This document shows, piece after piece, positions 4,937-7,936 of a stretch of DNA of 64,000 nucleotides. A program made the position numbers and the translations under genes. Within the stretch, counting starts at the first letter, position 1. Every line of letters starts with the position of its first letter. The stretch lies in the NCBI GenBank assembly GCA_018817125.1, contig JAHIUN010000007.1:1-64000 (forward strand), read 5' to 3'. The DNA comes from Patescibacteria group bacterium (GTDB taxonomy: Bacteria; Patescibacteriota; Gracilibacteria; UM-FILTER-43-11). The notes under the pieces are model-generated. The model saw only the letters and a list, made by a program, of their open reading frames with translations. It was not told the origin of the DNA and ran no database searches.

Positions 4937-4949
4937 ATTAAAGATATTT

Positions 4950-5069
4950 CGTATAACGTTGCAGTATATGTGACGTTTGCTACTGGTATAATATGCCGAA
5001 GGCTCACCAGTGGCAAATGTGGGCGTTTACCGAGCTGAGGTAATAAGCCGCATATACTGCTGTTGTACG
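4950..5069. repeat. Palindromic element E1 (covarying, att-like)
   Basis: The ends CGTATAACG and GTTGTACG are complementary apart from one pair. Just inside, GCAGTATATG pairs perfectly with CATATACTGC. An inner stem TTTGCTACTGG pairs with CCAGTGGCAAA, and a third hairpin TTACC/GGTAA follows. E2 (7335-7482) has the same layout with compensating base changes in both main stems, so pairing is conserved and sequence is not. TGGTATAAT inside the element reads as an extended -10 on the + strand. It lies immediately downstream of the GHKL ATPase gene. Confidence 0.75.
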
Positions 5070-5224
5070 CCCCGACGACCATCGGGAGGAGAGCGCAGCG
5101 GGGTGCGAAGTGAAACGGAGCAAGTTCAAGTAATATTTTTCCATCCAATAGGTCTTTTGATAGGCTTTTCTAATGAACAGAAGAAACTGTTTATTAGTGC
5201 TCATGTTTTGCTTTCAGGGTATTT
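5070..5224. other. Non-coding spacer between E1 and the ATPase gene
   Basis: No gene is seen here. A GC-rich hairpin (GCCCCG near 5068 with CGGGGTGC near 5100) abuts E1. An AT-rich stem CTAATGAACAG (5170-5180) with CTGTTTATTAG (5187-5197) lies close to the ATPase stop codon. Neither has a poly-U tail in the ATPase direction. Confidence 0.5.
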
Positions 5225-7189
5225 TCAGTATTCATATTTGGCTTTTTGTTTTTCGATTGTATCTTCTGGATCATTCAAGAAATCTATTAGCTCGCTAAGA
5301 ACAATCAAATCCATTTCCCGTTGTTGCGATGTAACGCTTGTGAGTACATGAGTAACTCCATGATACTGTCGTTGGTCTAAATTATCTGGGTCTAACAGAG
5401 ATGTCACCATGTAATTCCCCTCATATTCTGATCCAGTTTCCCATACTACTACTAGTGAGATATCGTTGGAATTTTTAACACCATTTTCAATATCTTCAAT
5501 CAACCCATCTAATGAGAATTTGTATTCAAGGATCTTTGGGGCGCTCAGAAGCCCAGTCTCACCTAGCTCATCCATTTGACCAGGTAAAATTCCAAGAGGA
5601 TTGGTAGTGGTATGATGTTCATGGTTTTTTGCAGGGGGTTCTATGCTGATTTTATATAAGCCATCATATGTTAAACGTTCGTTGGTGGACATGATTCTTA
5701 AGCCACGAATTACACCGCCTGCAATGAGTTGATGGAACAGGGCTATTACATCTTGCTCTCTTGTTGGCGTGGAAGTAAGGCCAATTTTTTTTGTTGGGAG
5801 AAAGAAATTTTCATTATTAATTTGTAGAGGGCTTTCTATCTCGTGTTGTAGCATTTCCTGTTTCCATGTATCCACTCCTGCTTCTCTTACTAAATCCGGT
5901 GCAAGTCCAGTATTTTTTCTTAGAACTGATTGGTATTTTGGAAAAGCTCTATTAATAAGTGCTGCAGTTATTTCTTTGCAGAAATCAACGATATCACTTC
6001 TAAATCCTTTACGACCTAAATCTGCTGAGCAATTTTCAAAGTGTATAAGAAAATGAACTTGGTTTTGTCGTCCAATATTCCGCGTCAAAGGAATTTGAAT
6101 GATTTCGCCTTGTGGCATATTATTGGCTGAAATCTGAAAACCACCTGCTAGTATTTTAAGACCTGATCTTATATTTAGTGATTCATTAAAAACTGACCAA
6201 AGTTTTGCGGAGTACACGTAAGAAAAATATACATATGGTTTATATTTTTCCAGGATTTCTTTCTGGTTTTCATCTAATTTTAACGATGCTTCTAATTCTT
6301 CTGGCTTAAATGTTCCATAAAATACATCTAAATTTTTCAGAGCTGGTGGTAAAATATAGCCAGGTCCCCTTGCCTCGTATAGCTCCTGCATTTTCCCCTT
6401 TACTTCATCCAGACTTGCTATTTTTTTTGCTAGTGTATGGGGCCATAAGTATTGAATCCCCTGAAAGACCCCTTCTTCAGTTTCACCCTTTTCGTTAACT
6501 ACCTTCAGGTGTACCTGTATTTCTTCGTTTGCAAAAAAACTACCAAGTCCAGTTTTAATAGATAATATTTTATGCCACGCATCGACGCTACTAGCCTTTA
6601 CCCAACCTAAATCCGCTGGGTGAGTCGTACTGTCAAAATTGATACGAATTGAAACACCTTTATCTATTTCCTTGCACTCTTGTGCAAGATTGCTTTCAGG
6701 TGCTGTTTTGACGAGCGGATTGCCGGACGGATTTTCATCATCTAGCCATTTTCTAGCATTTACCATTTTACCTGTATAGGTAAAATCCTCAGTCTTTGTA
6801 TAAATTTGCATAAAGTTGTAACCATATGCTAGAAAAGTCGCGCCAACACCCTTGTGTCCGCGCGTATTGCCTGATTTAAAAGAAAAATCTGGCGCCAAAA
6901 AAGCCTTGAGCGTTACTTCATTAAGGCCGATGCCATTATCACTTACGGTAAGTGAATTATCTTTAATATCTATTGTTATCCAAAGCTTTGGTTGATATAC
7001 CTTATCTTCGGTTTTAGCGCGTTCTTCAATGGAATCTAATGCGTTTTGTATTAATTCGCAAAATGGATCGTAATAACCAACGTAAGAATTTAATATATTT
7101 CTTAATTCGCGCTTAATTGCATTTGTAGCGGCTTCTGTTCCTTTTGTATATTTTGCTTCTAATGGGTCGAAAGTGTTTTCCGTTGACAT
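5225..7189 (-). CDS. GHKL ATPase with probable C-terminal PD-(D/E)XK domain
   Basis: A 654-residue protein whose N-terminal 150 residues carry the GHKL (gyrase/Hsp90/MutL/MORC) ATP-binding motifs: E45-LIQN49-ALD52 for Mg and ATP, D84NGIG88, and the lid GHKGVG at 111-116. Residues 190-400 look like an S5-type transducer. In the C-terminal third E478, D509 and E555-Y-K557 are spaced like a PD-(D/E)XK nuclease core, followed by the hydrophobic strand ISLVVVWE; this is an inference from spacing. The gene is clearly more AT-rich than its neighbours, has its own promoter (7217-7245), and lies between palindromic elements E1 and E2. MORC/MutL-like ATPases of this kind occur in bacterial conflict systems, so a defence role is likely but unproven. 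Confidence 0.85.
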   Translation of the reverse strand: MSTENTFDPLEAKYTKGTEAATNAIKRELRNILNSYVGYYDPFCELIQNALDSIEERAKTEDKVYQPKLWITIDIKDNSLTVSDNGIGLNEVTLKAFLAPDFSFKSGNTRGHKGVGATFLAYGYNFMQIYTKTEDFTYTGKMVNARKWLDDENPSGNPLVKTAPESNLAQECKEIDKGVSIRINFDSTTHPADLGWVKASSVDAWHKILSIKTGLGSFFANEEIQVHLKVVNEKGETEEGVFQGIQYLWPHTLAKKIASLDEVKGKMQELYEARGPGYILPPALKNLDVFYGTFKPEELEASLKLDENQKEILEKYKPYVYFSYVYSAKLWSVFNESLNIRSGLKILAGGFQISANNMPQGEIIQIPLTRNIGRQNQVHFLIHFENCSADLGRKGFRSDIVDFCKEITAALINRAFPKYQSVLRKNTGLAPDLVREAGVDTWKQEMLQHEIESPLQINNENFFLPTKKIGLTSTPTREQDVIALFHQLIAGGVIRGLRIMSTNERLTYDGLYKISIEPPAKNHEHHTTTNPLGILPGQMDELGETGLLSAPKILEYKFSLDGLIEDIENGVKNSNDISLVVVWETGSEYEGNYMVTSLLDPDNLDQRQYHGVTHVLTSVTSQQREMDLIVLSELIDFLNDPEDTIEKQKAKYEY

Positions 7190-7216
7190 AAAAAATCTAT
7201 TTAAATTAGTGGAGTT

Positions 7217-7245
7217 ATTTTACCCTGAAAGCCCTCTATTAACAA
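7217..7245 (-). promoter_or_regulatory. Promoter of the GHKL ATPase gene
   Basis: On the minus strand TTGTTA is separated by 17 bases from TAAAAT, ending 28 bases before the ATPase start codon. Confidence 0.6.
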
Positions 7246-7334
7246 ATTTATTCCCCTTGTATTTAAAAAGCCTATTAAAAGTTCCTTGATCTAAATTATA
7301 GATACCCTTAAAAAGAAAAATATTTTTTGAATTG

Positions 7335-7482
7335 CGTACAACGTTTCGGTATAAGTGAAGTTTACCAATGTTATAATTAATCCTCAACGTTGGTAAATTT
7401 GGGTGAGTGTATTTTACTCACCGAAATTTACGTCAAATAAGGTAAAATACACGAACCACTTATACAGTGTTGTAGGTTGTAC
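7335..7482. repeat. Palindromic element E2 (covarying, att-like)
   Basis: Second full copy of the E1 family. The outer ends CGTACAACG and GGTTGTAC pair. GTATAAGTG pairs with CACTTATAC where E1 has GTATATG with CATATAC. TTTACCAA pairs with TTGGTAAA where E1 has TTTGCTACTGG with CCAGTGGCAAA. Extra hairpins (GGTGAGT/ACTCACC, GTATTTTAC/GTAAAATAC) enlarge the right arm. TGTTATAAT occupies the same place as TGGTATAAT in E1. It lies between the small acidic gene and the ATPase gene. Confidence 0.75.
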
Positions 7483-7483
7483 A

Positions 7484-7519
7484 TAAAAAAAGAAAGGCCA
7501 CCTTTAGATAGCCTTTCCA
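7484..7519 (-). terminator. Rho-independent terminator of the small acidic gene
   Basis: Read on the minus strand, GGAAAGGC and GCCTTTC form the stem and a run of seven T follows. It lies directly after the stop codon of the 7539-7823 gene and before E2, so the two accessory genes are separate transcription units. Confidence 0.8.
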
Positions 7520-7538
7520 ATATATTGATTATGTTCAA

Positions 7539-7823
7539 TTAAACCAGGAATAATTTACTATCTCTAATAAATTTAATTGCTTTTTCTGACAATTCTAATT
7601 TTTCAGGGCTAGCATGGTTAAGGTTGTATTGCACTGTATCTAGCCAATCTTGTGGAGTTGGCCCATCCTCTTCCATTTCGCCAAATGGTGCCACGTTAAG
7701 CTCATGAACAACGTCTTCAATTTCTTGTCTTTGATCAGCCGTTATATCAACCGCCTCTCTTTGGCCTGGTGCAACTAATTTTTCTACTGTTGTACCTTGT
7801 TGATCTGGTGTGTTTGTATTCAT
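7539..7823 (-). CDS. Small acidic protein of the accessory module
   Basis: A 94-residue, strongly acidic, soluble protein with no recognised domain. The first 30 residues are polar and probably disordered. The rest is predicted mainly helical (EIEDVVHELNV, PQDWLDTVQYNLNHA, KAIKFIRDSKLFLV). It has its own near-consensus promoter and its own terminator. It shares the low GC of the ATPase gene and lies with it inside the block bounded by E1, E2 and half-element E3. It may be a partner, regulator or separate cargo of the same module; nothing in the sequence decides between these. Confidence 0.75.
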   Translation of the reverse strand: MNTNTPDQQGTTVEKLVAPGQREAVDITADQRQEIEDVVHELNVAPFGEMEEDGPTPQDWLDTVQYNLNHASPEKLELSEKAIKFIRDSKLFLV

Positions 7824-7853
7824 AATTATTTTATTAAATTATTTATCGTTATC

Positions 7854-7882
7854 ATTATAGCATATAGTTGTCATAATGTCAA
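7854..7882 (-). promoter_or_regulatory. Strong promoter of the small acidic gene
   Basis: TTGACA, a 17-base spacer and TATAAT preceded by TGC (extended -10) read on the minus strand, 30 bases before the start codon. It lies between half-element E3 and the gene, so the unit carries its own transcription signal. Confidence 0.85.
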
Positions 7883-7904
7883 AATAATCTTTTTTTGTGT
7901 ATTT

Positions 7905-7936
7905 CCTACAACTGGTTTTTATAAGATGTGTTTTTA
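7905..7936. repeat. Half copy of the E palindrome (E3)
   Basis: CCTACAAC, then a TTATAAG core and GTGTTTT, match the left arm of E2 (GTACAACG, GTATAAG, GTGAAGTTT) in order and spacing. No right arm follows before the end of the glycosyltransferase gene at 7951. It marks the outer boundary of the accessory module. Confidence 0.45.

Follow-up and report, generated by a model that had tools for sequence, protein, structure and literature searches.

Gene cassettes of a probable, simplified integron in Patescibacteria

Introduction

Two adjacent genes of a Patescibacteria group bacterium (Gracilibacteria; assembly GCA_018817125.1) are very probably mobile gene cassettes of an integron, in a simplified form that is common in these ultra-small bacteria. 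They lie on positions 1 to 64,000 of contig JAHIUN010000007.1, the stretch of DNA that was analysed and that is called the window below. Integrons are gene-capture systems, which are best known as spreaders of antibiotic resistance. The module lies apart from the integron that the genome itself has, with pfkB on one side and a glycosyltransferase gene on the other, and each of its two genes is followed by a recombination site of the attC type, named E2 and E1, respectively. Judged by its sequences, the system behaves like an integron, yet it lacks two features by which integrons are defined, the IntI-specific I2 domain of the recombinase and the extrahelical bases of the attC sites, and it is possibly a missing intermediate without I2. 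No description of integrons in Patescibacteria, or candidate phyla radiation (CPR), was found in the open-access literature, with subscription papers and preprints outside the search. A groundwater survey counts complete integrons with IntegronFinder over all metagenome-assembled genomes (MAGs), CPR included, and was not found to describe CPR integrons.

Layout of the cassettes and their boundaries

Read on the minus strand, the module consists of the attI-like core TCTTATAAAAACCAG/ (the slash marks the crossover), cassette A, cassette B, the sequence TTATACGAAATA and the 3' end of pfkB. The original prediction, made from the letters of the DNA, had given the minus-strand order as gene, E2, gene, E1, which is correct, but what it took for a half element, E3, is instead the left half of an attI-like insertion site (7910..7926, minus strand; TCTTATAAAAACCAG/TT, core 7926-7910) with the crossover between 7912 and 7911. 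In a scan of the window, for which 17 attI sites adjoining integrases supplied the matrix, this left flank of cassette A ranked first among 127,966 positions, with 18.3 bits compared to 13.1 bits for the next one. Cassette A (570 bp, 7342..7911, minus strand) begins with TTGTAGGAAATA and ends with the attC E2 (7336..7475, minus strand), the boxes of which are R'' (7475-7469, CTACAAC) and R' (7342-7336, GTTGTAC). The cassette start GTTGTAGG and the R'' box of E2, CCTACAAC, complement each other and form an inverted repeat. Cassette B (2385 bp, 4957..7341, minus strand) begins with TTGTACGCAATTC and ends with the attC E1 (4950..5068, minus strand; R'' 5068-5062, GTACAAC; R' 4957-4951, GTTATAC), and here the start GTTGTACGC complements the R'' box of E1, GCGTACAAC, in 4/4 variable bases. 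The right half of the insertion site (4945..4956, minus strand), which is TTATACGAAATA and has been moved to the far end of both cassettes, fits the cassette/attI junction consensus GTTRNNYGAAATA. For E2 the element itself had been recognised before, but its outer right box is GTTGTAG at 7469-7475 and not GTTGTAC at 7476-7482; of the two, GTTGTAG alone can pair with the beginning of E2's own cassette. In each element the 5' box thus pairs with the own cassette start, and the 3' box is a G followed by the start of the following sequence. Own-start pairing together with a 3' GTT box that comes from the next sequence is the hallmark layout of integron cassettes, and the two predicted cassettes have it.

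The same logic is found in relatives. Among 31 consecutive cassettes, the four variable R'' bases exactly fit the own start in 15/31 and the next start in 0/31 cases, and in a larger set R'' fits the own start in 41/69 cases compared to 4/69 for the next cassette (permutation mean 4.3, maximum 12). Of 92 cassettes, 80 have their longest open reading frame (ORF) oriented toward the attC and 12 have it in the other orientation. The cassettes encode GNAT acetyltransferases, methyltransferases, APH-type kinases, HNH proteins, a C5 DNA methyltransferase and GmrSD, as well as restriction and DRT defence genes and an UG13b reverse transcriptase, and this predicted cargo is typical of integrons. Near-identical 5' leaders were observed on unrelated cassettes, comprising 7341-7240 of the window and the loci L051, L054, L063, L049, L008, L047 and L053; common leaders are e.g. 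GCAATTCAAAAAATATTTTTC or GAAATACTGCCCATTTTTC, and some of them contain a promoter-like sequence.

Fold and distribution of the attC elements

Both elements are predicted to fold into a three-way junction, with the L stem GTATAAGTG/CACTTATAC in E2 and GCAGTATATG/CATATACTGC in E1. Folded as single-stranded DNA and compared to shuffled sequences, E1 has a z-score of -6.5 and E2 of -3.9, and 0/200 shuffles equal them. In an alignment of 56 relatives the covariation of the paired positions is 0.468, compared to 0.159 in shuffled alignments and at most 0.08 with the partners slid, and for 101 sites taken as an independent sample from other genomes it is 0.516 versus 0.164 in shuffled ones. The R-stem pairs that fail are in both structure counts exactly the variable ones, which is expected because the letters of R' come from the next cassette. 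Fold and covariation therefore confirm that the palindromic family formed by E1 and E2 is real, and the compensating changes between their stems are as originally described. An unpaired central spacer is present on both arms, but short, usually of 1 nt and 4 nt, in agreement with the original remark that it is too short for a standard attC.

A covariance model built from E1 and E2 was used as starting search and later refined. With the initial model, matches were present in 23/58 genomes including the own genome, with at most 7 per genome, whereas the refined model found matches in 82/242 genomes of the class and in 48/287 genomes across the phylum, 36 of the latter outside the class. A third, diverged copy lies in the same genome (contig C15:128-280), and E2 shares 93% identity over 147 bp with a site of another genome (G010) which is located after an unrelated gene. 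Rfam contains no family for the elements. As copies are numerous, arrayed with unrelated genes and preserved in their stems, neither a lack of further copies, nor syntenic copies only, nor decayed stems, which the original prediction had named as outcomes that would speak against it, did occur, and the data support its proposal that the elements are a new attC-like class, one which carries gene cassettes.

On the bottom strand of many attC there is an extended -10-like sequence, TGNTATAAT, which is exact in 28/154 sites at a fixed offset of 33-34 nt, whereas none was found on the attC top strand (0.45 expected). In the window it lies on the plus strand within E1 (about 4984-4992) and within E2 (about 7369-7377). 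Two attC apparently have a whole gene inside their variable part, L008 on contig C15 of the same genome (G000:C15, about 131-773) and L054 (G007:C22, about 898-1970). Their matching L-stem arms CGGGCTATAAGA/TCTTATAGCCCG are 629 and 1072 nt apart, respectively, with an ORF between them, and the R'' box of L054 fits its own cassette start.

The recombinase and its relation to the sites

The window indeed contains no integrase, as originally stated, but contig C15 of the same genome encodes a dedicated integrase, together with an attI and cassettes of its own. It is a tyrosine recombinase of about 272 aa (C15:2673-3491), and its family has one member per genome. Within the class, the recombinase was found in 76/242 genomes, 58 of them with sites (Fisher odds ratio 19, p=6.7e-21), and phylum-wide in 38/287 genomes, 29 of them with sites (odds ratio 39, p=1.9e-19). 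Where site and gene are on one contig and at most 12 kb apart, gene and array diverge for 61/63 sites in 25 class genomes and for 29/29 sites in 12 genomes outside the class, which gives 90/92 sites in 37 genomes when pooled. The attI lies between the recombinase gene and the array, with the consensus AAACGAG/TT in most integrons read, including the own one on C15. The nearest named matches are from Patescibacteria, e.g. Peregrinibacteria, and in some class members TGA is read as a residue in the integrase gene; the genome would accordingly belong to the class comprising Gracilibacteria and Peregrinibacteria. TGA is also read as a residue in the integrase-bearing genomes G115, G130, G157, G168, G172, G176, G188, G189 and G236, in which no attC was detected, possibly because the model does not recognise sites as divergent as theirs.

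The I2 domain is regarded as a defining characteristic and as necessary for integron recombination (PMC9668308), and it recognises the extrahelical bases of attC (PMC4792948). It is situated between patches II and III and is absent from the 272-aa enzyme, which is 42 residues shorter. The spacing between the catalytic Arg and the HxLRH motif (His-x-x-Arg) is 89 aa in nearly all these enzymes, compared to 131 in 7/8 canonical IntI of our tree and 132 in the eighth (Vibrio atypicus), and the missing stretch coincides with the position of the IntI-specific domain. Against TIGR02249 the recombinase reaches 194 bits at a cut-off of 265, and the only family cut-off it passes is that of NCBIfam NF040815 (XerA_Arch), with 225.3 versus 220. 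No recombinase in 58 related genomes exceeds the TIGR02249 cut-off, and a hidden canonical IntI is therefore unlikely. The full R-K-H-R-H-Y set is kept. The AlphaFold model (mean predicted local distance difference test score, pLDDT, 86.7) has XerA and VchIntIA (2A3V) as closest solved structures. The L stem of the attC is likewise different from the canonical form, as it is continuous and commonly 11 bp long, and the spacers usually measure 1 nt and 4 nt. Continuous L stems were found in 123 matches compared to 8 in a reversed-sequence control, whereas stems with extrahelical bases in the L'' arm showed no excess (5 bulged stems versus 7 in the control). A relaxed scan for canonical attC detected two canonical sites (L143, L144), both with a bulged C, which served only as examples, and a strict scan gave no match, even in IntI loci.

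Genes of the two cassettes

The ORF of cassette A (7539..7823, minus strand) encodes 94 aa and gave nothing above cut-off in family searches. It is preceded by a predicted promoter, TTGACA-17-TATAAT (7854..7882, minus strand), which matches the consensus in 12/12 positions and is based on that match only, and a terminator-like hairpin (7491..7518, minus strand) lies 3' of the ORF and 5' of E2. The ORF of cassette B (5225..7189, minus strand) encodes a protein of 654 aa with a putative GHKL/HSP90-type ATPase domain (HATPase_c, 9e-5, under the Pfam cut-off). The protein was not found in 286 other Patescibacteria, phage records contained no relative of it, and scans of viral contigs with the integrase and with the cassette B protein gave no match. 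It is 39% identical over 99% of its length to a Rhizobium plasmid protein, the neighbours of which are a Vsr endonuclease, a DUF2357 protein and a C5 DNA methyltransferase. Since this full-length relative sits beside such genes, a defence-type role of the cassette B gene is plausible.

Origin of the insertion and proposed mechanism

In the sister species G001 the flanking genes (glycosyltransferase 95%, pfkB 91% identical) are adjacent and convergent, with no cassettes between them. Capture of the cassettes at an attI-like secondary site by the integrase encoded on C15 is the favoured explanation. It seems less likely that the locus is instead a relict integron platform which has lost its integrase. 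The flank agrees very well with attI to either side of the crossover, including the right half TTATACGAAATA, but remnants of an integrase were not seen, the end of the glycosyltransferase gene is about 24 bp away from the core, and the spacer in G001 is short and unrelated.

According to the favoured secondary-site capture, the two cassettes would have been inserted successively between pfkB and the glycosyltransferase gene, at a site that may have read CTTATAAAAACCAGTTATACGAAATA before. The bottom strand of the attC, which is the plus strand of the window, would be extruded and fold, and the recombinase of about 272 aa would bind the R and L boxes and swap strands at G/TT with attI or an attI-like site. 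The circular cassette would thereby be joined to the site, the TTRNNY half of which would be pushed to the far end, and a replicative resolution step would follow, as presumed from known integrons. As there is neither an I2 domain nor an extrahelical base, the choice of strand must depend on something else, and the probable cues are the central bulge of 1 nt and 4 nt together with the conserved three-way junction. Boundaries, G/TT junctions, own-start pairing, attI, divergent integrase, conserved fold and absence in the sister species are all read from the DNA, and from these we infer the 272-aa recombinase as actor and the bottom strand as substrate. Bottom-strand folding is indirectly supported by wobble pairs, of which 205 are G-T and 34 A-C on the modelled strand, whereas the three R positions that come from the next cassette, used as internal control, show about equal numbers (35 versus 31).

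Several points weigh against our interpretation. Sites without a detected integrase occur in 24 genomes and an integrase without detected sites in 18, although these are draft genomes and the site model may overlook sites. The wobble pairs were counted on an alignment that had been fitted to the modelled strand, and recombination by the 272-aa enzyme is deduced from sequence. Moreover, the exact sequence of the empty site is not preserved in G001, where the intergenic DNA differs too much for the bare site to be traced base by base, so that the evidence of insertion is the lack of the module in that species.

Alternative explanations

The cassettes could be real but moved by the chromosomal Xer (contig C11, 306 aa), as in Xer-exploiting elements, with the 272-aa enzyme being otherwise employed. 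A separate Xer-type protein is indeed present in the genome, and CTX phage integration shows that Xer acts on folded single strands (PMC4792948). However, the 272-aa gene is single-copy, tracks the sites and is divergent from the arrays with attI between, and in a tree of 105 sequences its family forms a single clade, separate from the Xer that the same genome encodes, which makes movement by Xer quite improbable. Even further from the data, to the point of being hardly credible, is the earlier suggestion that the elements are hairpin targets of a single-strand transposase (HUH/IS200-type) or miniature transposons. Long hairpins in AT-rich DNA that flank cargo genes would be in line with it, but own-start pairing, the fixed G/TT junction, attI and the adjoining tyrosine recombinase do not fit, and, although no search aimed at HUH transposases was made, no junction requires an insertion-site duplication or a transposase.

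With respect to the evolutionary position, two readings were considered. It is possible, and tentatively proposed here, that Patescibacteria keep an ancestral grade of integron that predates I2 and extrahelical bases, with a Xer-like recombinase and attC that are read by bulge and three-way junction. As an extension of this ancestral-grade proposal, transcription from the promoter-like TGNTATAAT on the bottom strand, which would be antisense to the cassette's own gene, could help to expose that strand. The converse, that these are canonical integrons which secondarily lost I2 and extrahelical bases and are degenerate, perhaps weakly active, seems somewhat unlikely. In favour of secondary loss, Patescibacteria genomes are reduced, the C-terminal KSPL of the recombinase resembles IntI, and a joint clade with canonical IntI is not rejected (approximately unbiased test, p=0.376). 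On the other hand, the I2-less enzymes form one clade (100/92) outside the IntI clade (100/100), the catalytic R-K-H-R-H-Y set is complete and the attC stems are strongly maintained; the two latter points argue for a system under selection. In the tree the Patescibacteria enzymes and canonical IntI are separate clades, neither nested in the other, and the tree does not order I2-less enzymes, IntI and a Bacteroidota group. Around most Bacteroidota and alphaproteobacterial I2-less recombinases the two-part hairpin is not enriched, and the system is therefore not claimed for these groups. Weak attC-like elements were observed near the I2-less recombinases L106, L122, L126, L135 and L099 of Bacteroidota and Spirochaetota, of which L122, L135, L106 and L126 are in one clade, and a related integron type may exist there. 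In addition, two attC-like elements of 276-290 nt lie by an I2-less recombinase in divergent geometry in the MAG HGW-Firmicutes-8 (L092:3373-4733).

Significance and comparison with known systems

I2 and extrahelical bases are described as the pair of features that enables single-strand cassette recombination, and a paradox has been stated, namely how selection could have favoured one of them before the other existed (PMC4792948). A widespread and strongly maintained cassette system that lacks the two at once makes the paradox directly testable; if the proposal of an ancestral grade is true, that grade would be the functional intermediate that resolves this chicken-and-egg problem. Furthermore, the system would provide a route of gene exchange, defence genes included, for a large and mostly uncultured group of bacteria with small genomes. 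Software that requires the IntI-specific domain would not classify the Patescibacteria systems as complete integrons.

The module resembles clusters of attC sites lacking integrases (CALIN) and attG cassettes in that it has no adjoining integrase and is inserted in the ordinary chromosome. The sites known as attG carry a minimal GWT motif, whereas the target here is attI-like beyond that motif. With Xer and XerA recombinases the 272-aa enzyme shares size and fold, but it is not the chromosomal Xer, forms a separate clade and is found at cassette arrays with attI. An enzyme for dimer resolution is expected to be near-universal and to have one dif site, whereas the 272-aa gene is present in 76/242 and 38/287 genomes and tracks attC arrays. 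CTX phage integration by XerCD, as an integrative mobile element exploiting Xer (IMEX), likewise uses an I2-less enzyme and a folded single-strand site without extrahelical bases (PMC4792948), but has no integrase of its own and no cassette arrays. Known integrons, consisting of attI, attC and IntI and including sedentary chromosomal and archaeal ones (PMC9668308), have in common with the system described here the arrays, the R''-L''...L'-R' boxes, the G/TT crossover, attI, a divergent tyrosine recombinase, ORF orientation and types of cargo, whereas the Patescibacteria system differs by a recombinase without I2, attC without extrahelical bases, a 1-nt/4-nt central bulge with a conserved three-way junction, and an R box that is GTTRNNY rather than GTTRRRY.

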